Below are positions 4,685 to 46,725 of a stretch of DNA of 46,725 bases, one piece after another. The notes under the pieces are model-generated. The model was not told the DNA's origin. It worked only from the letters and a program-made list of their open reading frames with translations, and did not search any database. The stretch's first letter is position 1, and each line of letters starts with the position of its first letter. The DNA lies in assembly GCA_017461475.1 (NCBI GenBank), contig JAFTXX010000009.1:1-46725 (forward strand), written 5' to 3'. This DNA is from Clostridia bacterium. GTDB lineage: Bacteria; Bacillota; Clostridia; Oscillospirales; CAG-272. The position numbers were made by a program, and so were the translations under genes.

Positions 4685-4887
4685 AAATTAATGTTTATGT
4701 TACTGCCATCTCCGCCCGAGATCGCAACGCTGACGCTCAAGGATGACAAGGGCGGGAGTTAGCAAAGTGCTGAAAAGGCTTATTCTATCGCGTTGTAACA
4801 ATCCCCGCTTGTCATCCTCGAACGGAGCGCAGCGAAGTGAAGGATCTCGCGGGGAGATGTTTGCTTGAACTTCTAAACATTAATTTA
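4685..4887 (+). repeat. Repeat A copy 2 (204-bp class) inside the wal operon
   Basis: Ends AAATTAATGTTTATG and TAAACATTAATTTA form the terminal inverted repeat. Inner complementary arms are ATCTCCGCCCGAGATC with GATCTCGCGGGGAGAT, and AGGATGACAAG with CTTGTCATCCT, so the whole unit can fold as one long imperfect hairpin. It has no coding capacity. It lies between walK and the YycH-like gene. Confidence 0.88.
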
Positions 4888-4892
4888 TCTTC

Positions 4893-6656
4893 TTACGCCT
4901 TAGGAAAACTTATAACAAACTCGGTTCCCTTGCCGACTTCGCTTGCAACTTTTATGTCGCCGCCGTGGGCGGCGGCAAATTCTTTTGCTATGGCAAGGCC
5001 AAGGCCCGTGCCGCCCTTGTCGCTGTTGCGCGCTTTTTCAACTCTGTAGAAACGCTCAAACAGACGCGGGATGTCCTCATTTGGGATGCCTATGCCGTTG
5101 TCGCGAACGGAAATCTCAACATTGCCCGCTGATTCGCTTAGCGAAATGTGAATTTCGCCGCCGTCGGGCGTGTATTTTATCGCGTTTGAAACGATGTTTA
5201 TTACCGTCTGCTCAACTCTGATGCGGTCGCCGTTTATGTAAAGCGGCTTGTCCTCGCCGTCAAACGTGAGCGACTGTCCTTTTGAGGCGGCGGTGAGAGA
5301 AAGTGTGTTTGCTATCGACTTTACAGACTCTGTGATGTTCATTTTCTTCATCTCGAAGTTGACGGTCTTTGAGTCGAGCTGTGAGAGGGTGAGAAGATTT
5401 TTTATAAGGGCTTCCATGCGGCTGCTTTCGGAGTCCGCCATTTCAAGAAAGCTGCGTGTCAGCTCGTTTTTAGTGATGTTTTCGTCGCCCGAGAGCGTTT
5501 CAAGCACCATTTTTATCGTTGTAAGCGGGGTGCGAAGCTCGTGAGACGCGTTTGCCACAAATTCGCGGCGGCTGCGGTCGAGCTGATAGCTTTGGGTGAC
5601 ATCGTGGATAGCCACAATAAATCCGTCGCGCATTTTTTCACTCTCGCGGTAACGGATGTTGCCGAAGTAGAGTTCATATACGCGGCCGCGGTAATGCACT
5701 GCGGGAACGCCGCCGCCCTCGCTGCCAAGGTCAATGTCTATGTCGTCTTTGTCGAAGTTCAACAGACTGAACATGTAGTCAAGCGAAATGCGGTCGATGT
5801 CCTCTTTGAAAAGCTTTCTTGCAGAGTCGTTTATCTGCAGCGGCTTGCCGTCCTCGCCGAATGTGAGCACCGCGTCTTTGAGGCAGGAAAGCACGGTTTC
5901 AAGCTTTTCGCGCTCGCCGTTGATGTCGTCGAGGTTTTCCTCAATCATGCGGCTCATGTGGTTGAAGTTTTCGGTAAGTACGCCTATCTCATCATTGGAC
6001 TGCACGCGTATCTTTTCCTTGAAGTTACCGCTTGCAACGCGCTGAACGCCGGCGGTAAGCCTTGACAGCGGCTGTGAAATTGCGCGCGCGAGGAAAAACG
6101 CAAGCACAAATGCTATGATAAGTCCAATAAAAAGCGCCTGAAGAATTATGGAGAAAAGCATCCACGTAATTTCGCCGAGCTCTTCCTGCGTGTCGCGGAT
6201 GTATATGATGCAGCCCGTGCCGCCGTTTGACAGCGGAAGCGCAAAGTCGGCGAAATCCGAGCTTTGATTTTCACTGCTGCCCACATCGCCGCCGATGGCT
6301 TTGATAAGGTTTGGCGTCAGCGCGATACTGCCGTCGGCACCGTCGCTGCCCGCAAGAAAATTACCCTCGCCGTCGAGAATATAGTATGCTCTGTAGTCGT
6401 CAATTCCGAGCTTTGAGGAGTACGCGTCGAGGATGCTTCGCTGGTTTTCGGCAAAACCGTTGGTGTCGCCGAGCGCATTTTCAAGGTAAACGCGGAGCTG
6501 ACTGCCCGAGGAGAAGTTTTGCTCCATGCACTCCGAAAACTCGCCGTTGTAATACGCAAGCACGTTTGAAATAAGCACCGCGCCGACAACGCTCATTACT
6601 ATCAGAATAAAGATGACGAGTATGAGTATTATTTTGAAATAAAGTCCCTTTTGCAT
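4893..6656 (-). CDS. walK: WalK-type sensor histidine kinase
   Basis: 587 residues. Two membrane helices (about 7-30 and 165-188) flank an extracytoplasmic sensor domain (31-160). They are followed by a HAMP linker (about 189-240), a PAS-like domain (about 250-360), a HisKA domain with phospho-acceptor His at about 372 in the H-box ASHELRTPL, and an HATPase_c domain carrying DNGIGIP and GGTGLGLAI. Members of this family autophosphorylate and control WalR, which governs peptidoglycan hydrolases. It lies 9 bases after walR. Pairing with WalR, YycH-like and YycI-like genes supports WalK over a generic PhoR-type kinase, though PhoR shares the architecture. Repeat A follows the stop by only a few bases. 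Confidence 0.88.
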   Translation of the reverse strand: MQKGLYFKIILILVIFILIVMSVVGAVLISNVLAYYNGEFSECMEQNFSSGSQLRVYLENALGDTNGFAENQRSILDAYSSKLGIDDYRAYYILDGEGNFLAGSDGADGSIALTPNLIKAIGGDVGSSENQSSDFADFALPLSNGGTGCIIYIRDTQEELGEITWMLFSIILQALFIGLIIAFVLAFFLARAISQPLSRLTAGVQRVASGNFKEKIRVQSNDEIGVLTENFNHMSRMIEENLDDINGEREKLETVLSCLKDAVLTFGEDGKPLQINDSARKLFKEDIDRISLDYMFSLLNFDKDDIDIDLGSEGGGVPAVHYRGRVYELYFGNIRYRESEKMRDGFIVAIHDVTQSYQLDRSRREFVANASHELRTPLTTIKMVLETLSGDENITKNELTRSFLEMADSESSRMEALIKNLLTLSQLDSKTVNFEMKKMNITESVKSIANTLSLTAASKGQSLTFDGEDKPLYINGDRIRVEQTVINIVSNAIKYTPDGGEIHISLSESAGNVEISVRDNGIGIPNEDIPRLFERFYRVEKARNSDKGGTGLGLAIAKEFAAAHGGDIKVASEVGKGTEFVISFPKA

Positions 6657-10576: not shown

Positions 10577-10866
10577 TAAATATTAATGTTTATGTTACAA
10601 ACATCTCCGCCCAAGATCCTTCGCGCTGCGGCTCGCACTGATTTAACCGCCGCAAAACGCGGCGGATGATGCGACGGAACTAAAGTTTTCTTACGCAGGT
10701 AGTCAGAGCCGCATTGCTCAAGGATGACAAGGGCGGGATTTAGCATAGTGCTAAAAAAGCCTTTTTTTACGCACTGTAACAACCCCCGCTTGTCATCCTC
10801 GAACGGAGCGCAGCGAAGTGAAGGATCTCGCGGGGAGATGTTTGCTTGAACTCTAAACATTAATTT
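10577..10866 (+). repeat. Repeat A copy 3 (290-bp class)
   Basis: Same terminal repeats (TAAATATTAATGTTTATG at left, TAAACATTAATTTT at right) and inner palindromic arms as the other copies, with an extra block of about 86 bases near the left end containing CCGCCGCAAAACGCGGCGG. It has the same orientation and length class as the copy at 11501-11790. Together they bracket two small genes. Confidence 0.88.
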
Positions 10867-10874
10867 TCCCCACA

Positions 10875-11476: not shown

Positions 11477-11500
11477 GCTATGCGACCGGTGTTAGTGAGG

Positions 11501-11790
11501 TAAATAAATGTTTATGTTACTAACATCTCCGCCCGAGATCCTTCGCGCTGCGGCTCGCACTGATTTAACCGCCGCAAAAAGCGGCGGATGATGCGGCGGA
11601 ACTAAAGTTTTCTTACGCAGGTAGTCAGAGCCGCATTGCTCAAGGATGACAAGGGCGGGATTTAGCAAAGTGCTAAAAAAGCCTTGTTTTATCGCATTGT
11701 AACAACCCCCGCTTGTCATCCTCGAACGGAGCGCAGCGAAGTGAAGGATCTCGCGGGGAGATGTTTGCTACTCCGCTAAACATTAATTTA
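11501..11790 (+). repeat. Repeat A copy 4 (290-bp class)
   Basis: Near-identical to the copy at 10577-10866, same orientation and length. Left end TAAATAAATGTTTATG, right end TAAACATTAATTTA. It carries the same extra CCGCCGCAAAAAGCGGCGG block. Confidence 0.88.
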
Positions 11791-11794
11791 CCAA

Positions 11795-11828
11795 ACAAAA
11801 AAGGCTTGCACCAATGCAAACCTTTTTG
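11795..11828 (-). terminator. Terminator of the Ldh_2-family gene
   Basis: On the minus strand, arms AAAAAGGTTTGCA and TGCAAGCCTTTTTT end in a T-run a few bases after the stop. Confidence 0.8.
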
Positions 11829-16014: not shown

Positions 16015-16034
16015 TTAATGTAACATACCAACCC

Positions 16035-16109
16035 GTAGGGGCGATTATTAATCGCCCGAAAAGCAGGGATGAGATGTTGTACAAGCGGGCGATTACCAAT
16101 CGCCCCTAC
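16035..16109. repeat. Repeat B copy 1 (palindromic)
   Basis: GTAGGGGCGATTATTAATCG at the left is mirrored by CGATTACCAATCGCCCCTAC at the right, around a loop of about 28 bases. Related copies are at 41982-42008 (loopless) and 46591-46665. Confidence 0.85.
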
Positions 16110-17122: not shown

Positions 17123-18484
17123 ATGAGAAGAATTTTTGCGGTCACGCTTACGCTTGCCGCGGTTTTCTGTTTTGCTTCCTGTGATTTGACTGACAAGGAC
17201 AAGACCGAGAACACAGGCACGGTGACCGCTATCCATACAGCAACCGATTTCACGGAAACAACGGTTTTTGTTGAAACGTCGGAGTGCGTCACATCTCCCG
17301 AGGAGACCGTCACAGCGGAAACTTCCGCTGTATCGGTTGATACAACATCGGAGATGTGTGTGACTGATGTTACAAAAGAAACCGTTACAGAGACTGTCGC
17401 CGTCACCGAAGACACGACGGTTTCCGCCGAAATCACATCCGCCGATGAGCCGGTGACACCGCCCGATGTCACTGTGACCTCGACGGAAACTTTACCAGAT
17501 GAAACGGCAGAGCCCGAGGAATTTGACTTTGCGACGGCAGACCTTACAAAGTATATCGCGCTCGGCAAATATCTCGGCATAGAGGTGCGTGTTGCGCCTG
17601 CGGTAACCGTCAGTGAAGAACAGGTTGACGCTGAGCTTGCTGAGTTTGTTTTTCTGCTCCCCAAAGAGGCAATGATTTTTGACGGAGTGTGCAAGAGCGG
17701 CGATAAGGTAAGCGTTGACTACACATCTTCTTTGGGCGACGGCGAGACAAACGCCGTTGTTACGGTAGGCGCAGGTGAGTACATCGAGGGCTTTGAAGAG
17801 GGAATTGTCGGCATGAATGTCGGCGAGACCCGTCAGCTTGCCTTGACTTATCCGGATTATTACGGCTCGCTTGCCGGTCAAACGGTGACTTATACCGTAA
17901 CTCTCAATTATATATACCCCACACTTAATGACGCCATAGTGCTTGAATATTTCGGATACAATTCACTTTCGGAGCTCCGCGCCGACCTGCGGGACGGTCT
18001 TGTAAACGCCGCCGCAGAAGATGCTGAGAGCGTCCGCACCGAGGCGGCATGGACAAAGGTGGCGGCAAACTCGCGTATAATTGCGTACCCGACGTCTGCG
18101 GTAAACGCGGCGCTTGAAAAGGAACTCGAAGGCTACAAAACCTACGCCGAGCAATGCGGCATTACCTACGAGGAGCTTATCGAAAGCACTTACGGCATCA
18201 CAACCGCCGAAGCGGAGAGCATTTTCACGGAGTATGCCAAAAACGCTGTTGCTCAGCAGCTTTTGCTTTATGCGATAGCACGCGACATGGGTATGGATAT
18301 AAGCGACGCGGCGTATGATGAACGCATTTCGGACATTGCCGCGGAGTACGGCATGTCAAGTATAGAGGTGCTTGTTGCCGCTACGGGTCAGACAAAGACG
18401 TATTTCAAAGAACTTCTCATTTATGATGACGTTCTCGAAAAAATAGTAAAATATGCAAACTTTGTCGAAACAGCTTCAAATTAA
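17123..18484 (+). CDS. Lipoprotein FKBP/trigger-factor-like peptidyl-prolyl isomerase (paralog 1)
   Basis: 453 residues. The signal peptide ends in a lipobox (CFASC, lipidated Cys20), so the protein is anchored outside the membrane. A Thr/Val/Glu-rich low-complexity linker spans about 31-130. An FKBP-type domain follows (about 193-264: GDKVSVDY, GAGEYIEGFEEGIVGMNVGE, then a PxxYG-like segment), inside a trigger-factor-like frame whose helical C-terminal chaperone arms occupy about 270-450. The predicted role is folding of exported proteins. A GGAGG-type site precedes the ATG. It is first of three adjacent paralogs with different membrane anchors, 29 bases before the second, and has its own promoter. 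Confidence 0.85.
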   Translation: MRRIFAVTLTLAAVFCFASCDLTDKDKTENTGTVTAIHTATDFTETTVFVETSECVTSPEETVTAETSAVSVDTTSEMCVTDVTKETVTETVAVTEDTTVSAEITSADEPVTPPDVTVTSTETLPDETAEPEEFDFATADLTKYIALGKYLGIEVRVAPAVTVSEEQVDAELAEFVFLLPKEAMIFDGVCKSGDKVSVDYTSSLGDGETNAVVTVGAGEYIEGFEEGIVGMNVGETRQLALTYPDYYGSLAGQTVTYTVTLNYIYPTLNDAIVLEYFGYNSLSELRADLRDGLVNAAAEDAESVRTEAAWTKVAANSRIIAYPTSAVNAALEKELEGYKTYAEQCGITYEELIESTYGITTAEAESIFTEYAKNAVAQQLLLYAIARDMGMDISDAAYDERISDIAAEYGMSSIEVLVAATGQTKTYFKELLIYDDVLEKIVKYANFVETASN

Positions 18485-18513: not shown

Positions 18514-19974
18514 ATGATTTGCCCTAAATGCCAAAAAGAAGTTTTATCCCCTGATGAATTTTGTCCCTATTGCGGTGAAAAAATGAGCGCCGAAGAGGCC
18601 GCCACGGCTGAAACTGTCGAGGAAACCGCGGAAAACACTGCCGAGGAAACAACCGAGGAAGTAACCGAGGAAGTAACCGAGGAAATGGCAGAGGAAGCAA
18701 AAGCTATCGTCAGCGAAGCTGAGGTTTCGGAGAAGAAGGCAAAGACCGCTGTTAATATTTTGGCGGCGCTTATCGTTGTTGCAATTGCCGTTATCGCGTT
18801 TTTGCTCGGCGGCAAACTGCTTGGCACCGTCGGCGATACCGCACAGACGACCGACGCAACTTCGGACGCTGTTACCGACATCACGGCTGACACTTCCTAT
18901 GTTACCGATGTAACCGACACCGGCGCAGTTCCTTTTGACGGCGCTTACGATAACTATACCACCGTTTACGCAAACGGCTTCGACTACAGAAATGTAAGCC
19001 TTTCCGAGTACATAACCCTCGGTAACTACAAGGGTCTGACCGCGGAGGTCACCGTGACCGAGGATTTCACCGATGAAGAATTTGCGGACATGGTCAACTA
19101 CTTCCTGCTTCAGTACGCCGAACTCGGCGACGCTGTTACCGACCGCCCCGCCGAGATGAACGATACCGTAGTCATTGACTACGCAGGCACTGTTGACGGC
19201 GTTGCGTTTGAAGGCGGCACCGCCACAGAGCAGACCGCAACCATTGGTCTCGGTCAGTACATCACAGGCTTTGAAGAGGGTATTATCGGCATGAGCATCG
19301 GCGAAACACGCGATGTTCACGTTACCTTCCCCGAAAACTACGGCGTTGAGTCTCTCAACGGCAAGGATGCCGTGTTTAAGATTACTCTCCGCTCGATTAC
19401 CGAAAACATTCTCCCTGAGTACAACGACGAGTTTGTTTCGACAAACTTTGAGTTTGCGGACGTCGCGGAGTTTGAGCAGAGCATGCGCGACGCAAGAAAA
19501 GAAGACGCGCTTTCCGAGAAATATGAAGTGATTATGCAGCTTCTCACCAGCACTTCCGAGATGATAAAGTACCCCGACGGCGCTATTGAGGACTACATTT
19601 ATCAGCAGGTTTCCTATGATAATTACTATGCTTCCTACTACGGCATGGATATCGGAAGCTTTATTTCCGCTTACTACGGTATCTCTCTTGACGCGTATGA
19701 GGCTCAGCTTGAGACTAGGGCTGAAAACATGATAAATCAGGAGTTCGCGCTCTACGCTGTTGCCAAGGCTGAAGGCTTGACAGTCACCGACGAGGAAATG
19801 GCGACCGCAACGGCGGAATATCTTGCTTACTACGGCTATGAGGACGTTGCAACTCTTTGCGCCGAGATGGGTGCAAGCGAAGAACTTCTTCAGAATTCGC
19901 TCCATTTCTCGCTTATTTACAGCAAGGTAATGGAATTTATGATTGAAAATACAACTTTTACAGTTGTACAATAA
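18514..19974 (+). CDS. Zinc-ribbon, membrane-anchored FKBP/trigger-factor-like isomerase (paralog 2)
   Basis: 486 residues. A cytoplasmic zinc ribbon (Cys3, Cys6, Cys17, Cys20) is followed by a Glu/Thr-rich repeat stretch (about 25-75, recurring TEEVTEE), one membrane helix (about 79-98), an extracytoplasmic Thr/Asp-rich spacer, an FKBP domain (about 217-295, with GQYITGFEEGIIGMSIGE) and trigger-factor-like helical arms. The inferred role is an envelope foldase whose inside zinc ribbon could bind a partner. AAGGAG lies upstream of the start. It is 29 bases downstream of paralog 1. Element D copy 1 begins 9 bases after the stop. Confidence 0.83.
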   Translation: MICPKCQKEVLSPDEFCPYCGEKMSAEEAATAETVEETAENTAEETTEEVTEEVTEEMAEEAKAIVSEAEVSEKKAKTAVNILAALIVVAIAVIAFLLGGKLLGTVGDTAQTTDATSDAVTDITADTSYVTDVTDTGAVPFDGAYDNYTTVYANGFDYRNVSLSEYITLGNYKGLTAEVTVTEDFTDEEFADMVNYFLLQYAELGDAVTDRPAEMNDTVVIDYAGTVDGVAFEGGTATEQTATIGLGQYITGFEEGIIGMSIGETRDVHVTFPENYGVESLNGKDAVFKITLRSITENILPEYNDEFVSTNFEFADVAEFEQSMRDARKEDALSEKYEVIMQLLTSTSEMIKYPDGAIEDYIYQQVSYDNYYASYYGMDIGSFISAYYGISLDAYEAQLETRAENMINQEFALYAVAKAEGLTVTDEEMATATAEYLAYYGYEDVATLCAEMGASEELLQNSLHFSLIYSKVMEFMIENTTFTVVQ

Positions 19975-19983
19975 AGGAGATTA

Positions 19984-20130
19984 GCGCGAAAGTTTAATCA
20001 GCAATATTTTTCGCATAGATTATTTCGCGCCCGAACTCCTCGCAAAATGAGCCTCTAACTCATTTTGCCGCACGAAGTGCGGTACCGAGGATTTCATTAA
20101 AAAATTTTGTGCCGCTGCGCGCGGCAGAAT
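19984..20130 (+). other. Element D copy 1: structured 147-bp leader-like element
   Basis: A 147-base unit that recurs once, inverted and ungapped, at 26081-26227. Stems: GCGCGAAA (19984-19991) with TTTCGCGC (20023-20030), continued by TAATC/GATTA; GCAAAATGAG (20042-20051) with CTCATTTTGC (20059-20068); CGCAC/GTGCG at 20069-20081; outer CCTC/GAGG around those two; TGCCGC/GCGGCA at 20110-20126. It is flanked on both sides by GGAGATTA (19976-19983 and 20131-20138), and the right one is the ribosome-binding site of paralog 3. It may be a mobile element with an 8-bp target duplication, or an RNA leader. Confidence 0.8.
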
Positions 20131-20141
20131 GGAGATTAAAA

Positions 20142-21128
20142 ATGAAAAAGACACTTGCACTTGTACTTACGGCGGCTATGCTCGCCCTGTCGCTCGTTTC
20201 CTGCGGCAGTTTCGACGTAACCAAGGTAGACCTCGTTGCCGACGGCTATGTAACCGTAGGCGATTACGAAAATCTCGACCTGAACCTTGCGGATTACGAA
20301 GCCGAAGACCCCACCGACGCTGACGTTTATGCTCACGCTGTAGAACACCTCGGTCATTCCGAAGATGTCGCAACCGTTGACCGCGCCGCTGAGGAATTTG
20401 ACCTTGTAAACATTGCGTTTGTCGGCTCTATCGACGGCGTAGAGTTTGAGGGCGGCACGTCCGACTCCACCGACCTCGTTATCGGTGCGGGCAATTTCAT
20501 CGACGGTTTTGAAGACGGTATTATCGGCATGAACATCGGCGAGACCAAGGATGTTACCGCAACTTTCCCCGAAGATTACGGCAAGGAAGAGCTTAACGGC
20601 AAAGAGGCAGTATTTGCAATCACCCTCAACACCGTTTATGACCCCGCAGTTCTCGATGATGTAAGAGCAGAGCTCACCACAGAGTATGACGAGGAAACCC
20701 TCAAGACCGACGTTTGGGCGGCACTTGAAGAGAGCGTTACAGTTGTAAACTATCCCGCAAACTATGTCAAGGAACTTGCAGATGCTCAGTACAAGTATTA
20801 TGAGTACATGTACAGAAGCTGGGGCATGATGGACGACATGGAAGACCTCGGCGTTACCATGGAAAGCTGCGAGGAATACGCAAAGAGCCAGATCGACTAT
20901 GAGTTCGCGGTTTACGCACTTGCAAACGCTCAGGGTATCACCGCAACCGAGGAAGAACTCGCGGCTAAGGTTGCAGAGTACGTAGCAACCTATGTAGGCT
21001 ACGGCTACACCGAGGAAGAGGCAAATTCGATGTTCTCCACCGAGAGCGTTGAAAGCGAAGTTCTCTACGAAAAACTCGTAGACGCGGCAATTGCAACCCT
21101 CGAAGCAGCAGAACCCGTAGCGGAGTAA
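20142..21128 (+). CDS. Lipoprotein FKBP/trigger-factor-like peptidyl-prolyl isomerase (paralog 3)
   Basis: 328 residues. The lipoprotein signal ends at LSLVSC (Cys21). It is shorter than its two neighbours because the Thr-rich linker is missing. The FKBP domain (about 86-165) has the same GNFIDGFEDGIIGMNIGETK core, then helical trigger-factor-like arms with several Tyr-rich helices (YKYYEYMYRSW). The start at 20142 is set by GGAGATTA; an upstream in-frame ATG at 20109 would read through element D and was rejected. The element separates it from paralog 2, so it may be read from the upstream promoter through the element. A strong terminator follows. Confidence 0.85.
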   Translation: MKKTLALVLTAAMLALSLVSCGSFDVTKVDLVADGYVTVGDYENLDLNLADYEAEDPTDADVYAHAVEHLGHSEDVATVDRAAEEFDLVNIAFVGSIDGVEFEGGTSDSTDLVIGAGNFIDGFEDGIIGMNIGETKDVTATFPEDYGKEELNGKEAVFAITLNTVYDPAVLDDVRAELTTEYDEETLKTDVWAALEESVTVVNYPANYVKELADAQYKYYEYMYRSWGMMDDMEDLGVTMESCEEYAKSQIDYEFAVYALANAQGITATEEELAAKVAEYVATYVGYGYTEEEANSMFSTESVESEVLYEKLVDAAIATLEAAEPVAE

Positions 21129-23495: not shown

Positions 23496-25304
23496 ATGAA
23501 AAGGTTTTTACTCTGCCTTTGCACAGTAATACTCGCTACGGCCATGCTTGCAGTAGGCGCATTTGCGGCTGAGACCGTAATTTATGAGAACGATTTCTCT
23601 GACGCAAGCACCATTTCCGACTTCACTCAGTACAGTTTTGAGTGGGCAATCAAAGACGGCGGCCTTTATTACACCGGTACAAAGACCAACGGCTCTGCTG
23701 ACTTCGGTCATATTCTCTGGAACGGCGGCAGCGGCCTCACCGACTACATCGTTGAGGTTGACTATATGAACGTTCAGACCGCAGGCGGCATTGTTTTCCG
23801 CTGCGACCTTTCCAAGGCTGACGAAACTTCCAACGGCTATTACGGCTATCTTGCATTTATTGCAAACGACGCTGCAAAGGGCGCGTTCGGCTGTCCCAAC
23901 ACAGACGGCGTATGGAAAAACAACATCAATGTCGGTAAGAGCGGCAACTGCAATCTCGGCTCCAACGTTCACATCAAGGTTACCGTTAAGGGCAATGACA
24001 TCAAGGTTGAAATGACCAACATTGACAACGGAAAGACCGTTTATTCTTATTCTTACACCATCGGCTCTTCCGAGCACGACACCGCTAATTGGGCAAGCGG
24101 CACCGCGGGTCTCCGCATTCGCTCGGATTTTGCTTCCACCAGCGCAAAGTCTGCAAACAACGCTTACTTTGACAACTTCAGAATCCTTACCGCGGATTCC
24201 GCTTCGGAGTATGTTCCCACAACTCCTACTACTCCCACCACACCCACCACTCCTACAACACCTACAACTCCTTCCACTCCCGTTGTAGCAAAGGCTATCG
24301 ACACATCCAACCTCGTTCCCGTTTACACAAATACCTTTGACAATGCGGCAGCTATTGCTGATTTTACTCAGTATCGCGGCACTTGGGCGGTTTACCAGGG
24401 TAAGCTCTTCCTCTCCGCTCTTGCGGCAGGCACACAGTCCTACATTCTCTACGGCGGCGACATGGATCTTGTAACTCTTGAGGATTATGTTGTAGACGTT
24501 GATATGTACAACACCCAGACTCAGGGCGGTATTATCATGTGTTCGGACTATGCAAACGTTACCGGTGACACCGATGACGGCTTCATGGGCTACATGATGT
24601 TCATTTCCAACGACGGTACTCTCGGCGCTATCGGCGCAGGCCTTTCCGACGGCAAGTGGTACCAGGGCAACATTGAAGTTTCTAAGGCTGTGCTTTCTCC
24701 CGGTATGGATATCCACATTCAGGCGGCAGTTAAGGACGGCGTAGTTCAGATCACCATTACCGAGCTCGCAACCGGCAAGGTTCTCTGGACTCACTATGAA
24801 GCAAACGACTTTTGGTCAAGCGGTACTTTCGGCTTCCGTCTCCGCGGCAAGGCTACAAATGCAGGCCTTGACAATCTCAACACCACCGCATTTGACAACC
24901 TCGTAATTTCTACTTTCGGCGAAGAGACCGAACCCACCGTTGTTAAACTCACCATCGGTGAGACTGTAGGCTACATCAACGGTGTTGCAAACACTCTCGA
25001 CGCAGCGCCCATTATCCGCGAGAGCCGCACAATGCTCCCCGTACGCTTTGTAGCAGAAGCATTCGGCGCAACTGTTGGCTGGGATGGCGCAACTTCCACC
25101 GCAACTCTCACCACCGCTGACACCACCATTGAAATCACCATCGGTGCCACCACCGCGAAAGTAAACGGTCAGACTGTTACACTCGACGCACCCGCGTTTA
25201 TTGAAAACAGCCGCACCTACCTCCCCGTACGTTTCGTTGCCGAAAACCTCGGCGCAACCGTCGCGTGGGACGGTGCTACCTCGACAGCTACGCTGACGAA
25301 GTAG
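23496..25304 (+). CDS. Secreted two-module (LamG/sialidase-fold-like) protein with copper-amine-oxidase-N C-terminus
   Basis: 602 residues. Signal peptide at 1-24 (cut near AFA/AE). Two homologous modules (about 25-240 and 270-470) share the DFTQY, YIVEVDY/YVVDVDM, GGIV/GGII and FDNFRI/FDNLVI patterns of beta-sandwich glycan-binding or DUF1080-like domains. They are joined by a (T-T-P)n linker (about 243-265). The C-terminal 120 residues are a copper-amine-oxidase N-terminal type domain with two SRTMLPVRFVAEAFGA / SRTYLPVRFVAENLGA repeats, a common wall- or matrix-associated module in clostridia. No catalytic residues are recognised; a carbohydrate-binding or scaffold role is inferred. AAGGAGG precedes the ATG. 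It lies downstream of the SLH gene with its own transcription unit. Confidence 0.8.
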   Translation: MKRFLLCLCTVILATAMLAVGAFAAETVIYENDFSDASTISDFTQYSFEWAIKDGGLYYTGTKTNGSADFGHILWNGGSGLTDYIVEVDYMNVQTAGGIVFRCDLSKADETSNGYYGYLAFIANDAAKGAFGCPNTDGVWKNNINVGKSGNCNLGSNVHIKVTVKGNDIKVEMTNIDNGKTVYSYSYTIGSSEHDTANWASGTAGLRIRSDFASTSAKSANNAYFDNFRILTADSASEYVPTTPTTPTTPTTPTTPTTPSTPVVAKAIDTSNLVPVYTNTFDNAAAIADFTQYRGTWAVYQGKLFLSALAAGTQSYILYGGDMDLVTLEDYVVDVDMYNTQTQGGIIMCSDYANVTGDTDDGFMGYMMFISNDGTLGAIGAGLSDGKWYQGNIEVSKAVLSPGMDIHIQAAVKDGVVQITITELATGKVLWTHYEANDFWSSGTFGFRLRGKATNAGLDNLNTTAFDNLVISTFGEETEPTVVKLTIGETVGYINGVANTLDAAPIIRESRTMLPVRFVAEAFGATVGWDGATSTATLTTADTTIEITIGATTAKVNGQTVTLDAPAFIENSRTYLPVRFVAENLGATVAWDGATSTATLTK

Positions 25305-25415
25305 CAGTTATATTCGCCTATCGGCGAGTTATATTGCTTCGCAGTGATATTCGGCTTCGCCGAGTGATATTGCCCTTCGGGCAGTTTATCACGTTTGCGG
25401 CAGCAAACATATCAC
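25305..25415. repeat. Hairpin array 1 (constant linkers, variable stems)
   Basis: Five small hairpins in tandem: TCGCC-TATC-GGCGA, TGC-TTC-GCA, TCGGC-TTC-GCCGA, TGCCC-TTC-GGGCA, GTTTGC-GGCA-GCAAAC. The linkers are nearly constant: AGTTATAT, AGTGATAT, AGTTTATCAC, ATATCAC. Stem sequences differ but each is self-complementary. The array starts right after the stop of the secreted-protein gene. Confidence 0.8.
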
Positions 25416-25416
25416 T

Positions 25417-25448
25417 AAAAAGAGGAACTCTTTCGAGTTCCTCTTTTT
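25417..25448. terminator. Bidirectional terminator
   Basis: AAAAAGAGGAACTC and GAGTTCCTCTTTTT arms around TTTC, between convergent genes. The T-run overlaps the stop of the minus-strand ThyX-like gene. Confidence 0.9.
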
Positions 25449-26070
25449 ATTCATCTTTGCAACAAATCAAATCTTTTGCATACGGCAGCGACAATATCCA
25501 GTCGCACAGCGTATGCCACTCGTCGAGTTTGTGGGAGCGGCGGGCATAGTAGATGTTTACGAGCGTTTCGTAGTTCATCGTTATTGTGCGAAGTTGGTTG
25601 TATGACGAGGGAAGAAGCTGGATAAGGTCATACCAGTAGGTCTTGTCCTTGTTTTCCATGTAACGCAGACGCGTTTCTTCCATATACTTAATATAGGCAG
25701 TGAACGCTTCGAGCGCGCCGTCCGTCATATGGTCGGTACTGAAGTCCGAGAGTTCAAAGGGCTTCGCGTGTATCTTGTGCATTGTACTTGTGGAGTTTGC
25801 GACGGTAGCCACTTTGTAGGTGTCAAATTCCTTCCACCAGTACATCGGTGCGGTTATGTCCACAGAGACTAAAATCTGACGCATAAATTTGCGGTGGTCG
25901 CTGCCCGCTTTGCAAAGTCGCTTTGCAAGGTCAAGGTCGTTTTCGCCGAGAATGTAGTTCCCGTTTTCGTCATACGCGCTGTCCGAGCGCGCCCACGAAT
26001 TAAGCGGATTGCGCGCACCGCGGATGGCGTTTTCAAGATTCATTACACAGCCGTGTTCAACTTTAAGCAT
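25447..26070 (-). CDS. Conserved ThyX-like hypothetical protein
   Basis: 207 residues. Core SDHRKFMRQI...APMYWWKEFDTYK...NSTSTMHKI, then LPSSYNQLRTITMNYETL and RRSHKLDEWHTLCDWI. The spacing of His-Arg, Trp-Trp-x-Glu-Phe and Ser-x-Ser-x-x-His, and the final Arg-Arg-x-His-x-x-x-Glu-Trp helix, recall flavin-dependent thymidylate synthase (ThyX), but the canonical RHRxxSxNExSxR motif is not intact, so thymidylate synthesis is not claimed. The start at 26070 has GGAGATTA upstream; a frame running to 26205 passes through element D and is rejected. Its 5' leader of about 175 bases contains element D copy 2, downstream of a consensus promoter. Confidence 0.6.
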   Translation of the reverse strand: MLKVEHGCVMNLENAIRGARNPLNSWARSDSAYDENGNYILGENDLDLAKRLCKAGSDHRKFMRQILVSVDITAPMYWWKEFDTYKVATVANSTSTMHKIHAKPFELSDFSTDHMTDGALEAFTAYIKYMEETRLRYMENKDKTYWYDLIQLLPSSYNQLRTITMNYETLVNIYYARRSHKLDEWHTLCDWILSLPYAKDLICCKDE

Positions 26071-26080
26071 ACTAATCTCC

Positions 26081-26227
26081 ATTCCGCCGCCAAGCGGCGG
26101 CACAAAAAGTAAAATGAAATCCTCGGTACCGCACTTAGTGCGGCAAAATGGGGGTGGGTCCCATTTTGCGAGGAGTTCGGGCGTGAAACAATTCGTGTAA
26201 AACAAATTGCTAATTAAATTTTCACGC
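26081..26227 (-). other. Element D copy 2: structured 147-bp leader in 5' UTR
   Basis: The inverted, ungapped partner of 19984-20130, also exactly 147 bases. On the minus strand the first stem is GCGTGAAA/TTTCACGC where copy 1 has GCGCGAAA/TTTCGCGC; the second is GCAAAATGGG/CCCATTTTGC where copy 1 has GAG/CTC. The changes compensate and keep pairing. The last stem is GCCGCC/GGCGGC. It is followed by GGAGATTA as the ribosome-binding site of the ThyX-like gene; the upstream flank GGTGTTTA matches 6 of 8 bases. Confidence 0.8.
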
Positions 26228-26254
26228 TAAACACCTCATTTCTTTGTTATATCT

Positions 26255-26923: not shown

Positions 26924-26927
26924 CAGC

Positions 26928-27091
26928 TAAATCCGTCCTTGCGGACGGGATAAATCACTGCGTGATGAAATCTGCTGACGCAGATGAAATCGCCTTCGGC
27001 GGTTAATGACGGATTTAATTTCATCAAAGCCGCAGGCTTTGATTTCATCCAACGCAGTTGGATTTCATCGTGCGCTTGCGCACGATTTCAT
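26928..27091. repeat. Hairpin array 2 (constant linkers, variable stems, two mirrored halves)
   Basis: Left half bounded by TAAATCCGTC (26928-26937) and GACGGATTTA (27008-27017), with hairpins CCGTCC/GGACGG, ATCAC/GTGAT, ATCTGC/GCAGAT, CGCC/GGCG joined by GAAAT-type linkers. Right half has CAAAGC/GCTTTG (27025-27041), CCAAC/GTTGG (27049-27061), CGTGCGC/GCGCACG (27069-27084), each separated by exactly ATTTCAT. The linker of the right half is the complement of the left one. No coding capacity. It fills the space between the tRNA terminator and the next small gene. Confidence 0.85.
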
Positions 27092-27136: not shown

Positions 27137-27301
27137 ATGGAACCGCGGGACTACACACTTACACGCATTGAGGGCGAATACGCATATCTTGCCGACGAAG
27201 ACGGCGGTGAGGTGTTTATTGCGCTTGCGCTGCTCCCTGCGGGCGCAACCGTCGGTTCGCGCTTGCACTGCGAGATGTTTGAATATACCCTCATAGGGTA
27301 G
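27137..27301 (+). CDS. Small DUF3006-like protein
   Basis: 54 residues. The pattern TRIEGEYAYLADEDGGEVFIALALLPAGATVGSRL-type (Arg-Ile-Glu-Gly, Ala-x-Leu, Asp-Gly-Gly, Leu-Leu-Pro-x-Gly-Ala) matches the short beta proteins of DUF3006, whose role is unknown, although relatives sit next to metallo-hydrolase or proteolysis genes. GTGAGG lies 7 bases before the ATG. It lies between hairpin array 2 and repeat A copy 5, which begins 9 bases after the stop. It is expressed alone, if at all. Confidence 0.65.
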   Translation: MEPRDYTLTRIEGEYAYLADEDGGEVFIALALLPAGATVGSRLHCEMFEYTLIG

Positions 27302-27309
27302 TAAAAAGG

Positions 27310-27554
27310 TAAATAAATGTTTATGTGTTCAAGCAAACATCTCCCCGCGAGATCCTTCACTCCTGCCATACTCGCTTTGCGAGTATGGCAGGAACCTTCG
27401 GTTCCTTGTGCTCCGTTCGAGGATGACAAGCGGGGGTTGTTACAGTGCGTAAACAAAGGCTTTTTTAGCACTTTGCTAAATCCCGCCCTTGTCATCCTTG
27501 AGCGTCAGCGTTGCGATCTCGGGCGGAGATGGCAGTAACATAAACATTTATTTA
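27310..27554 (-). repeat. Repeat A copy 5 (245-bp class)
   Basis: Ends TAAATAAATGTTTATG and TAAACATTTATTTA; both differ from the family consensus by compensating changes, so the ends still pair. It carries the extra hairpin CTGCCATACTC/GAGTATGGCAG and AACCTTCGGTT. The last three bases (27552-27554) form the stop codon of the flippase gene on the minus strand. Confidence 0.88.
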
Positions 27555-29081
27555 CCTAACGGCTTTTTCTTTCACCACGCCGCCTAGCCACGTGCGTTCT
27601 TCTTTGCCTATGGCACCGAGGCAGGCGGCGAGGGCGAAGTAGCAGAGGATATAGACGACGCATTCAAAAATCAGCGTTGCGGCGGAAGCCTTATGCGGGG
27701 CGAGCGAGAGCAGGATGTTACAGATATTCGCCGCGCCGATGGCGGCGGCGAGGGGAGAGAGCAGGATTTTTGCGAGGTTTATCTTCATATCGACGAGGCT
27801 CAGCAATTTCCAGATGCTGAACACGGTGTTGACGCACTCGGAGACGTAGATGACGACGATGTAACCGTAAACGCCCATCTGTGGCACGAGAAGCCACACA
27901 AGCAGTACGCTTATCGCGGCATCGGCGATATTGACGCACATGGTGTAAAACTGCTTGCCGAGGCCTTTTAAGACCGAGTCGGTGACGGTGTCAAGGAACA
28001 TCACGGGCATGAGCGGCGCGAGCGCGCGGAGATACTTGGCGCCCTCTTCGGACGAGTAGATGACATTGCAAAAGTCGCTTGCAAAGGTGCTGAGCATACC
28101 GGCGCAGAGCATTGAGAAAAACAGCGTTACAAAGAAGGCGCGCGAGGTTATGTAGGCGACTTCTTTTTTGTTGCCTGCGGCGTGAAATTCGGTTATCTCG
28201 GGTATGACCTGCCCCGAAAACGCGCCGACGAAGGACGACGGATAGAGCACTATGGGTAGTGCAACGGCGCTGACAATGCCGTATGTGGCGAGGGCGTTTG
28301 GGTCGCCGTAGGCGGTGAGGCCTATCGGAATCAGAATATGCTCGACGGTGACAAGTCCCGAGCGGACATACGCGGAAAAGGCGACGGGCAGGGAAATGCT
28401 TGTGACCTCGCGCATTTTCACCTTTTTTCCGCCGCCTTTTAATGTGCGGATGTCGGCAATGTATGAGAGTATCTGTACAAAAAATGAAAAAATTTCGCTT
28501 ATCGTGCCGCCGAGGACGAGTGCAAGGCAGGCGTATTCAACGCCGCGCGGCACGAACAGCGAGAGCAGAAATGTGCAACTCGAAATTTTGACGGTTTGCT
28601 CAAGGACTTGCGAAATTGCGTTTTTATAAACGCGGCGCACTGCGGCGTAGTACCCTGAGAAAGCTGAGCAGAGTGACAGCGGGAGCAACGACAGCGACAG
28701 GGCGCGGATCGACATCGCGGCGCGCGGCTCGTTTAAAAAGTGTTCCGCCGCAAACGAGGAGAATATAAACAGCAAAATGCTTGCCGCCGCGCCGAAACAC
28801 GCGCTGTAGAGCAGGCATTTTTTCATCGCGCTTTTGACGCTTGCGCCCTCGTTTTTGCCGAAGTAAAGCGCTACAAGCCGCGTTGCGGCGAGGTTTACGC
28901 CCGACGTGGCAAGTGTGACTGCAAAGGTATAAACGCTCATTACAAGCGAAAAAAGGCCCATGCCCTCACTGCCGACCTTGTTGACGCAGAAAGCGTTGAA
29001 CGCCACCGAAACCGTGCGCATCAGCAGTGTGCACGCGCTCAGAATCAGCGCGTTGATGAAGTATTTTTTTGCTCTGTTCAT
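27552..29081 (-). CDS. SpoVB/MATE-like polysaccharide flippase
   Basis: 509 residues with about 12-14 membrane helices. The N-terminus (NALILSACTLLMRTVSVAFNAFC, GSEGMGLFSLVMSVYTF) and the GLVTVEHILIP and SFVGAFSGQVIPEI segments match the stage V sporulation protein B / MurJ-like branch of the MOP superfamily, which flips lipid-linked sugars across the membrane. Whether it serves the spore cortex or another wall polymer cannot be told. The start at 29081 has AAGGGG upstream; an ATG at 29114 lacks a site. The stop codon TAA is supplied by the terminal repeat of repeat A, so the original C-terminus may have been longer or shorter. Confidence 0.82.
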   Translation of the reverse strand: MNRAKKYFINALILSACTLLMRTVSVAFNAFCVNKVGSEGMGLFSLVMSVYTFAVTLATSGVNLAATRLVALYFGKNEGASVKSAMKKCLLYSACFGAAASILLFIFSSFAAEHFLNEPRAAMSIRALSLSLLPLSLCSAFSGYYAAVRRVYKNAISQVLEQTVKISSCTFLLSLFVPRGVEYACLALVLGGTISEIFSFFVQILSYIADIRTLKGGGKKVKMREVTSISLPVAFSAYVRSGLVTVEHILIPIGLTAYGDPNALATYGIVSAVALPIVLYPSSFVGAFSGQVIPEITEFHAAGNKKEVAYITSRAFFVTLFFSMLCAGMLSTFASDFCNVIYSSEEGAKYLRALAPLMPVMFLDTVTDSVLKGLGKQFYTMCVNIADAAISVLLVWLLVPQMGVYGYIVVIYVSECVNTVFSIWKLLSLVDMKINLAKILLSPLAAAIGAANICNILLSLAPHKASAATLIFECVVYILCYFALAACLGAIGKEERTWLGGVVKEKAVR

Positions 29082-29705: not shown

Positions 29706-29750
29706 AAAAGCACCTCCTAAGAGCAGGATATGCGCGAAGAGGAGAAAAGG

Positions 29751-29995
29751 TAAATTGATGGTTAGAGGCGGGGCAAACATCTCCCCGCGAGATCCTTCAC
29801 TCCGCCCATACTCGCTTTGCGAGTATGGCAGGAACCTTCGGTTCCTTGTGCTCCGTTCGAGGATGACAAGCGGGGGTTGTTACAGTGCGATAAAATAAGC
29901 CTTTTTTAGCACTTTGCTTAAACCCGCCCTTGTCATCCTTGAGCGTCAGCGTTGCGATCTCGGGCGGAGATGTCAGTTCAATAAACAATAATTTA
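29751..29995 (-). repeat. Repeat A copy 6 (245-bp class)
   Basis: Nearly identical to the copy at 27310-27554, including the CTCGCTTTGCGAG hairpin. The left end is diverged (TAAATTGATGGTTAG), the right end is AATAAACAATAATTTA. Orientation matches copies 1 and 5. Confidence 0.85.
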
Positions 29996-38333: not shown

Positions 38334-38348
38334 GTTTTTTTGGGGAAG

Positions 38349-38552
38349 TAAATTAATGTTTATGTTACTATTATCTCCGCCCGAGATCGCAACGCTGACG
38401 CTCAAGGATGACAAGGGCGGGTTTGAGCAAAGTGCTGAAAAAGGCTTATTTTATCGCACTGCAACAACCCCCACTTGTCATCCTCGAACGGAGCGCAGCG
38501 AAGTGAAGGATCTCGCGGGGAGATGTTTGCTTGAACTCTAAACATTAATTTA
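38349..38552 (+). repeat. Repeat A copy 7 (204-bp class)
   Basis: Ends TAAATTAATGTTTATG and TAAACATTAATTTA with full palindromic arms, nearly identical to the copy at 4685-4887. Confidence 0.88.
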
Positions 38553-38596
38553 CAACACTTTTTATTTACCGCGCCATGGGACAAGGTGAAATCATT

Positions 38597-41964: not shown

Positions 41965-41981
41965 ATCGACGCACAAACCGT

Positions 41982-42008
41982 GTAGGGGCGATTATTAATC
42001 GCCCCTAC
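41982..42008. repeat. Repeat B copy 2 (minimal palindrome)
   Basis: 27-base near-perfect palindrome starting GTAGGGGCGATTA and ending TAATCGCCCCTAC, the arms of repeat B without the internal loop. Confidence 0.85.
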
Positions 42009-46550: not shown

Positions 46551-46590
46551 AAATTAATGTTTATGCGAGTAATGGCGATGCACCAACATC
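46551..46590 (+). repeat. Isolated repeat A left end
   Basis: TAAATTAATGTTTATG matches the left terminus of repeat A, but the following sequence diverges (GCGAGTAATGGCG) and repeat B follows instead of the usual palindromic arms. The window ends before a right end could be seen. Confidence 0.55.
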
Positions 46591-46665
46591 GTAGGGGCGA
46601 TTATTAATCGCCCGTTTGCAAAACATCTACGCCCTGCTTTTCGGGCGATTAATAATCGCCCCTAC
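46591..46665. repeat. Repeat B copy 3
   Basis: GTAGGGGCGATTATTAATCG at the left pairs with CGATTAATAATCGCCCCTAC at the right around a 33-base loop. The outer CAACATC/GTTGG extends the pairing slightly. The remaining 60 bases to the window end show nothing further. Confidence 0.85.
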
Positions 46666-46725
46666 GTTGGCTGGATTACAGCCACATGCGATGATTAAAG
46701 ATTTTGCCTTTAGGGACGTCGAGGA

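Follow-up and report, generated by a model that had tools for sequence, protein, structure and literature searches.

The window, i.e., the whole stretch of 46,725 nt that was analysed, contains two copies of a structured repeat, each located directly upstream of a start codon, as the first-pass annotation had claimed. That annotation described a unit of 147 bases followed by a Shine-Dalgarno (SD) sequence. The unit was found to comprise 154 nt, from AGCG to GGAGAT (limits of the covariance model), the SD GGAGAT being part of the element and the next TA belonging to the flank; this boundary is good to approximately 2 nt. The two loci contain the following features.

19976..19981, + strand: SD-like GGAGAT left of copy 1, presumably native (sequence inspection)
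19983..20136, + strand: copy 1 of the putative non-autonomous (mini) IS110-type element, termini AGCGCGAAAG to GCAGAATGGAGAT
19984..20030, + strand: stem P1 of copy 1, GCGCGAAA/TTTCGCGC (folding, consensus structure)
20033..20095, + strand: P2 domain of copy 1, Y-shaped, with two sub-hairpins (folding, alignment)
20105..20134, + strand: terminal hairpin of copy 1, GCCGC..GCGGC, with the SD region weakly paired
20131..20136, + strand: SD-like GGAGAT supplied by copy 1, with the downstream ATG 5 nt later
20142..21128, + strand: gene after copy 1, FKBP_C and Trigger_C domains (Pfam)
25447..26070, - strand: gene after copy 2, encoding a 207-aa protein, ATG at 26070-26068
26075..26080, - strand: SD-like GGAGAT supplied by copy 2, with the downstream ATG (26070-26068) after 4 nt
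26075..26228, - strand: copy 2 of the mini element
26232..26237, - strand: native SD-like GAGGTG left of copy 2 (compare the empty orthologous site in G002)

The product of the gene after copy 1 had been called a foldase lipoprotein, which is a fair description of a protein with these two domains. The 207-aa protein gave no Pfam or NCBIfam match at E 0.001, and its designation as ThyX-like was left unsupported. Judging from its sequence, GGAGAT at 19976..19981 is probably the original ribosome-binding site of the gene after copy 1. This copy sits between the second and the third of three tandem ORFs (17123-18484, 18514-19974 and 20142-21128), which share a repeated stretch; in the third ORF, the one scanned with Pfam, the stretch lies in the FKBP-like part.

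BLAST against the host's own genome gave 81% identity between the two copies (E 1.9e-36). They had been reported to align without a gap; the high similarity was upheld, but the MAFFT alignment contained gaps, all of them single bases, in two loops. Copy 1 matched positions 1-152 of 152 of the covariance model with 125.5 bits, and copy 2 reached 150.5 bits, both copies also being in the training set. The host genome (2.06 Mb, 86 contigs, 76% complete) harboured four mini copies, as found by BLAST and by the covariance model. The two further copies (L002 and L004) were also located directly upstream of an ATG, and an SD-like sequence was present immediately left of all four (GGAGAT, GAGGAG, GAGGTG and GAGGTA).

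Fold and placement of the mini elements

The two window copies folded far better than their dinucleotide shuffles (z-scores of -4.9 and -8.2), and the compensatory changes that had been named in two stems were seen as described. An alignment of 31 mini elements (minis) of the same architecture gave a consensus of 30 pairs, 12 of which were changed on both sides, compared with 7.3 for shuffled partners and at most 7 for slid partners. Under the consensus structure, 95.8% of the cells were paired, versus 88.4% with shuffled and at most 56% with slid partners. Four of five measures exceeded all of 500 shuffles, and the fifth, further pair types, was matched by 71 of the 500. In a shorter mini type (13 sequences), 8 of 26 pairs were changed on both sides, a figure taken from the alignment without shuffle controls. 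The conserved structure with covariation is thus real. The P2 domain is the part that differs between clades, and it is absent from some minis in the same genus. A search of the element with the Rfam covariance models returned no family at the gathering score, the sub-threshold matches being chance only, and a known Rfam family was thereby ruled out. The interior structure is kept more than a pure end-donor would need, a point against the origin proposed below; this fold may help to insulate the SD that the element supplies, or it may aid mobilisation.

Matches to the final 30 nt of the element were far more widespread than matches to the rest. A pattern for the terminal hairpin, which demanded no start codon, was searched for in a named genome collection. 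It matched in at least 116 stretches (L055-L170, several of which share one genome), with 117 distinct matches among those listed. Among the listed matches, 80 titles were from Clostridia or other Bacillota, some of them placed there by the genus name, an assignment that we take to be correct. An ATG with an ORF (40 codons or more, or open at the edge of the locus) was found 3-12 nt downstream of 111 of the 117 listed matches and exactly 4 nt downstream of 95. The controls were 39,651 random positions, 591 other GGAGAT sequences and 95 other GC hairpins; such an ATG followed at exactly 4 nt in 231, 11 and 3 of them and within 0-12 nt in 3,021, 75 and 7, respectively. Cultured carriers include Roseburia sp. 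831b. Among 246 genomes of the window's family, the hairpin pattern occurred in 26 and the reversed control pattern in none.

A census was carried out with a covariance model built from the 31 minis, which leaves out the ATG. In 79 genomes it gave 71 matches, spread over 17 of them, one being the host. The model (R1) had 31 training copies, of which at least 15 come from census genomes, and the census is circular to that extent. The genomes G028 and G012 carry 16 and 18 minis, respectively. For 68 of the 71 matches, an ORF of 40 codons or more began 1-10 nt further on (with ATG in 66 cases, GTG in one and TTG in one), and 56 matches lay exactly 4 nt before an ATG. Of the remaining three, two had an ATG at 4 nt with a short ORF and one adjoined another element. 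Such a census had been proposed in the first-pass annotation as a check on a leader RNA: the placement at start codons is indeed non-random and covariation is present, but the element was found to carry transposon ends, as described below.

The left flank was examined in 59 minis, a set that overlaps with the 71 census matches. An SD-like motif was present at most 13 nt left of the mini in 49 of the 59, whereas each of two control windows had it in 6 of the 59. In the same scan, another 117 end matches lacked a left end that could be recognised; they comprised full-length IS ends, truncated loci, degenerate copies and repeated places.

The proteins encoded downstream were sought for 42 copies, and 26 were found by motif or by hand, many of them cut at approximately 165 aa. 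A Pfam match was obtained for 20 of the 26 scanned, in 20 different families, including enolase, an arginyl-tRNA synthetase domain, dihydrodipicolinate synthase and glycerol-3-phosphate acyltransferase. Some of these genes are, we presume, usually essential. A regulon is unlikely, the downstream families being all different.

Orthologous sites were compared for two of the four host loci. At the blaI/blaR-like locus, the filled junction in the host reads ..GAATATGAGGAGGAG|element|TAATATG, and the site was empty in five other genomes: G002 (GAGTATGAAGAATGATGG), G003 (GAGGAGGAATAAACATG), G004 (GAGGAGGACTAAATG), G005 (GAGGAGGATTGAGATG) and G015 (GAGGAGGAATAAGAATG). The site orthologous to that of copy 2 was empty in G002 (TGAGGTGCAACACCATG) and G004 (AAGGAGACCGATATG). 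From these empty sites, it may be concluded that insertion of the element separated an SD that was already there from its start codon, at a junction known to approximately 2 nt. At two loci (L090 and L060), a second copy was located directly behind the SD of the first, and a third tandem was found in the census; rebuilding of the target at each insertion would produce such tandems. The element is therefore mobile rather than a regulatory leader.

Full-length IS110 relatives and putative guide segments

At Lachnospiraceae-type loci, an IS110-family transposase was found upstream of the terminal hairpin, on the opposite strand. The transposases P0001 (L144) and P0002 (L162) passed the cut-offs of Pfam DEDD_Tnp_IS110 and Transposase_20 and of NCBIfam NF033542 (IS110 family RNA-guided transposase); for the other full-length elements, membership of IS110 was recognised from similarity or a motif alone. 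Once this transposase had been found beside the same end, IS200/IS605, HEARO-like and group II elements were set aside.

The far end of the full-length elements begins with TAGCGTGAAA, as in L144 and in L202, which is from the window's family, or a close variant, and in most of them it is preceded by an SD-like sequence. In both of these elements, TAGCGTGAAA.. and ..GAATGGAGAT|TAATATG flank a transposase, and the mini ends AGCGTGAAA and GAATGGAGAT are common to both. The terminal hairpin is of the type found in copy 1. A second element from the window's family, L201, has a matching end, with its SD end off the contig. The minis thus have their two ends and their insertion site in common with the full-length IS110 elements. 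The layout was that of the IS110 group, with a long non-coding region by the transposase start and a short one at the other end: in L162, 291 nt separate the element end from the transposase ATG, and in 27 elements the far terminus lies 90-139 nt from the transposase stop codon. Five full-length loci searched against Rfam gave nothing but tRNA at the gathering score.

A related transposase was detected in 15 of the 246 genomes of the window's family (E 1e-30), among them G005, from the same genus as the host, whose IS110 element falls into a second subgroup and differs in its ends. The host genome, which is 76% complete, yielded no IS110 transposase, and neither did 13 others of the 17 mini-bearing genomes; among mini-bearing genomes at least 90% complete, 8 of 10 were without one. 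Multi-copy IS are often lost from short-read MAGs. The absence of the transposase from MAGs is possibly due to assembly loss, past activity or transient delivery. Because no IS110 was found in the host genome, the claim made here is that the minis are derived from such elements, not that they are presently mobilised in this strain. The window copies resemble MITEs in their length of 154 nt, in having no transposase inside, in their four dispersed copies and in their empty sites.

These 14 genomes with minis and no detectable transposase would also be expected if the minis were mobile via another transposition system and their ends resembled those of IS110 by convergence or end capture, and the minis have a long structured interior that was not seen in the IS. 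Such a system is nevertheless unlikely, since the minis match IS110 elements at the two termini, in the point of insertion and in the SD that they supply, and two of these IS110 elements (L201 and L202) come from the window's own family.

The relationship between the IS110 elements and their insertion sites was studied in the non-coding end of the full-length elements, read in gene orientation. There were 37 transposase-bearing elements, of which seven without an anchor (L209 twice, L210-L212, L231 and L251) were left out. Among the 30 anchored elements, 26 had a guide 4-mer and a flank, 27 a terminus pair and 21 a left-flank pair. The end and guide patterns were set by eye on the same elements; the guide pattern ignores the flank.

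Three segments were recognised. The first, CAC(TG)AT-NNNN-AT, contains four bases that were identical, in 25 of the 26 scored elements, to those separating the element from the ATG after it. When identical copies within a genome were collapsed, the identity held in 21 of 22, with 12 distinct 4-mers. The permutation mean was 2.5, and none of 20,000 permutations was as high, kinship of the elements not being modelled. The one exception (L223) differed by a single base. Outside the 26, three elements (L203, L205 and L358) agreed with the guide pattern by eye, and L362 had a guide-flank mismatch. The second segment is a 6-mer with which the opposite terminus also starts, in 27 of 27 elements, with eight distinct 6-mers: TAGCGT, TAGTGT, TACTGT, TAGGTT, AAGTTT, AAGGTT, AAGTCT and AAGATT. 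After collapsing, the match was 23 of 23 against a permutation mean of 4.1; some of the six positions are set by the search patterns and stay so in the permutation, and kinship is again outside the model. No guide segment was recognised for the second donor end. The third segment is pyrimidine-rich and resembles an anti-SD, e.g., CTCCTCC or CACCTCC. Its complement shared longer runs with the element's own left flank than with the flanks of other elements: for 17 collapsed elements, the run sum was 96 versus 82.5 when permuted (p 0.0016) and 62.7 with shuffled flanks, kinship not being modelled. By analogy with bridge and seek RNAs, the guide-flank and guide-terminus matches are presumably signatures of target and donor guides, and the matching segments would act as guides in an RNA. 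RNAalifold gave only a partial structure for 20 non-coding regions.

Four elements (L221 and L227-L229) were left unscored owing to an insertion in the putative RNA region. They are IS110 copies of two kinds in one genome, G457, and the putative guide-RNA region is interrupted at ATTTGTGCTTG^GTGCGAGC..; by eye, the insert presumably represents something resembling a group II intron.

The complete genome G847 contains eight IS110 copies that share the guide TTTT. Seven of the eight are located at TTTTATG, three of these seven in one and the same context, and only two of the eight precede an ORF of at least 199 aa. Because these copies sit at TTTTATG and mostly not before long ORFs, it may be concluded that placement follows the putative guide and not genes as such; gene starts are hit as most guides spell SD and ATG. 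The shared context is that of L239, L359 and L361, three of the eight copies of this one IS110, and by eye we take it to resemble a TnpB-type gene.

When the alignment columns of the minis were compared with the flank, 1 of 296 reached p<=1/300, with approximately 1 expected. No column tracks the flank beyond chance, and therefore the minis carry no detectable target guide; a self-guiding mini was rejected.

Proposed origin and relation to known systems

In all likelihood, the element is a non-autonomous miniature of an IS110 clade that homes to translation starts, and it is probably mobilised in trans. Full-length members would combine the DEDD transposase with a putative bridge RNA encoded in the long non-coding end by its start codon. 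One guide of this RNA would resemble an anti-SD, a second would contain NNNN-AT(G) and a third would match the element's own far terminus. Combined, they would address the junction between the SD of a gene and its start codon. Insertion would strand the native SD upstream, and the element end (GC hairpin and GGAATGGAGAT) would put a new SD approximately 6 nt before the same ATG. If the supplied SD is used, the gene could stay translated and the target site would be rebuilt. The minis, with both ends and a conserved fold and without a transposase or a detectable target guide, would be moved in trans by the IS110 transposase. The first-pass suggestion of a mobile cassette targeting translation-start regions is borne out by the empty sites, the tandem copies, the 68 of 71 census matches at start codons and the ends shared with IS110.

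The same annotation had offered a second suggestion, a new structured RNA leader. A cis-regulatory leader, riboswitch-like or protein-binding, that controls a regulon and whose structure is kept for regulation would agree with the compensatory changes in 12 of 30 pairs, the near-fixed distance to the start codon and the occurrence of minis where no transposase is detectable. However, the 20 downstream proteins with a Pfam match fall into as many families, sister genomes carry the same two genes without the element, and the native SD is left stranded; in addition, there are tandem copies, the ends are common to IS110, and no Rfam family was reached at the gathering score. A regulatory family of this kind is thus very unlikely, and a regulatory effect of single copies is possible. 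Random insertion, with the bias toward SD and start codons produced by selection alone as only gene-preserving insertions survive, is extremely improbable: the element end does carry an SD at good spacing and insertion inside genes is usually harmful, but selection does not make an internal 4-mer equal to the flank in 25 of 26 scored full-length elements, neutral intergenic insertions are nearly absent (3 of 71 not at a scored start, with a model lacking the ATG), and the G847 copies follow TTTTATG, mostly away from the starts of long ORFs.

In broader terms, the data probably point to an RNA-guided transposon clade with guides that mimic the ribosome, anti-SD on the left and start codon on the right, for which gene starts would be safe, self-regenerating landing sites. 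Across gut Clostridia, its small structured passengers would have remodelled the 5' untranslated regions of genes that are unrelated to one another, some of them presumed to be usually essential.

MITEs of Coxiella burnetii are reportedly linked to IS1111. In the available text of the report on them (PMC5896051), they are small non-autonomous elements attributed to an insertion sequence, and the window minis resemble them in being small, non-autonomous and IS-derived.

RNA-guided members of the IS110 group are a known kind of element. In the IS621 bridge-RNA system (Durrant et al. 2024, PMC11208160), as presented in its main text, a DEDD transposase, a long non-coding end upstream of the transposase and an outer-end hairpin are likewise found, and target- and donor-matching segments vary together across elements. 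Unlike in IS621 as described there, the two putative target guides found here read as an SD-like sequence and as NNNNATG, and the SD is restored by the end of the element. The main text of PMC11208160 contains none of the terms "start codon", "Shine", "ribosome binding" or "MITE".

For the seekRNA-guided IS1111/IS110 elements ISEc11 and ISEc21 (Siddiquee et al. 2024, PMC11187229), the available text describes targets chosen by an RNA from the non-coding region and natural redirection via guide changes, as proposed here. The target of ISEc21 is one conserved site in other IS, whereas here it is the generic translation-start signal of many genes; natural minis exist here, in contrast to the description of ISEc11 and ISEc21 in the same text. 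A mini-IS with 29-bp and 16-bp ends and target-carrying flanks was moved there with an outside transposase and seekRNA (PMC11187229), which makes trans-mobilisation of the minis plausible. In the parts of that article available, "start codon" and "ribosome binding" occur in methods and cargo design only. The literature searched by titles and abstract openings, with most subscription papers and all preprints outside its scope, contained no description of guides directed to the SD and start codon, of a rebuilt SD or of minis dispersed among unrelated genes, and neither did the available text of PMC11208160 and PMC11187229. Within these sources, guides for the SD/start-codon junction, the rebuilt SD and the spread of minis are the new part.

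Bridge-RNA recombinases are known to be re-programmable, and what their natural guides target is still a young question. The natural guides described here appear to have settled on a generic signal, SD and start codon, and not on one gene, and the element appears to repair the signal that it splits. This would be a natural example of a programmable inserter that uses safe harbours at gene starts. The 12 distinct natural guide-flank 4-mers are a resource, and the minis are a source of new, structured 5' untranslated regions. They are also a warning that a structured leader may recur and show covariation and yet be a transposon passenger, not a riboswitch.

Other repeats and RNAs in the window

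Two Gut-1 RNAs (RF01706) were detected in the window. The one at 25305-25375 starts at the first base past the stop codon of the ORF at 23496-25304, and the one at 26924-26995 comes after a tRNA cluster. A second dispersed repeat of approximately 200-300 nt occurs at seven places in both orientations (1-192, 4685-4896, 10582-10873, 11492-11796, 27301-27561, 29749-29995 and 38339-38558; approximate limits). A third, short repeat containing GTAGGGGCGATTATTAATCGCCC is located at 16020-16109, 41967-42004 and 46576-46666.
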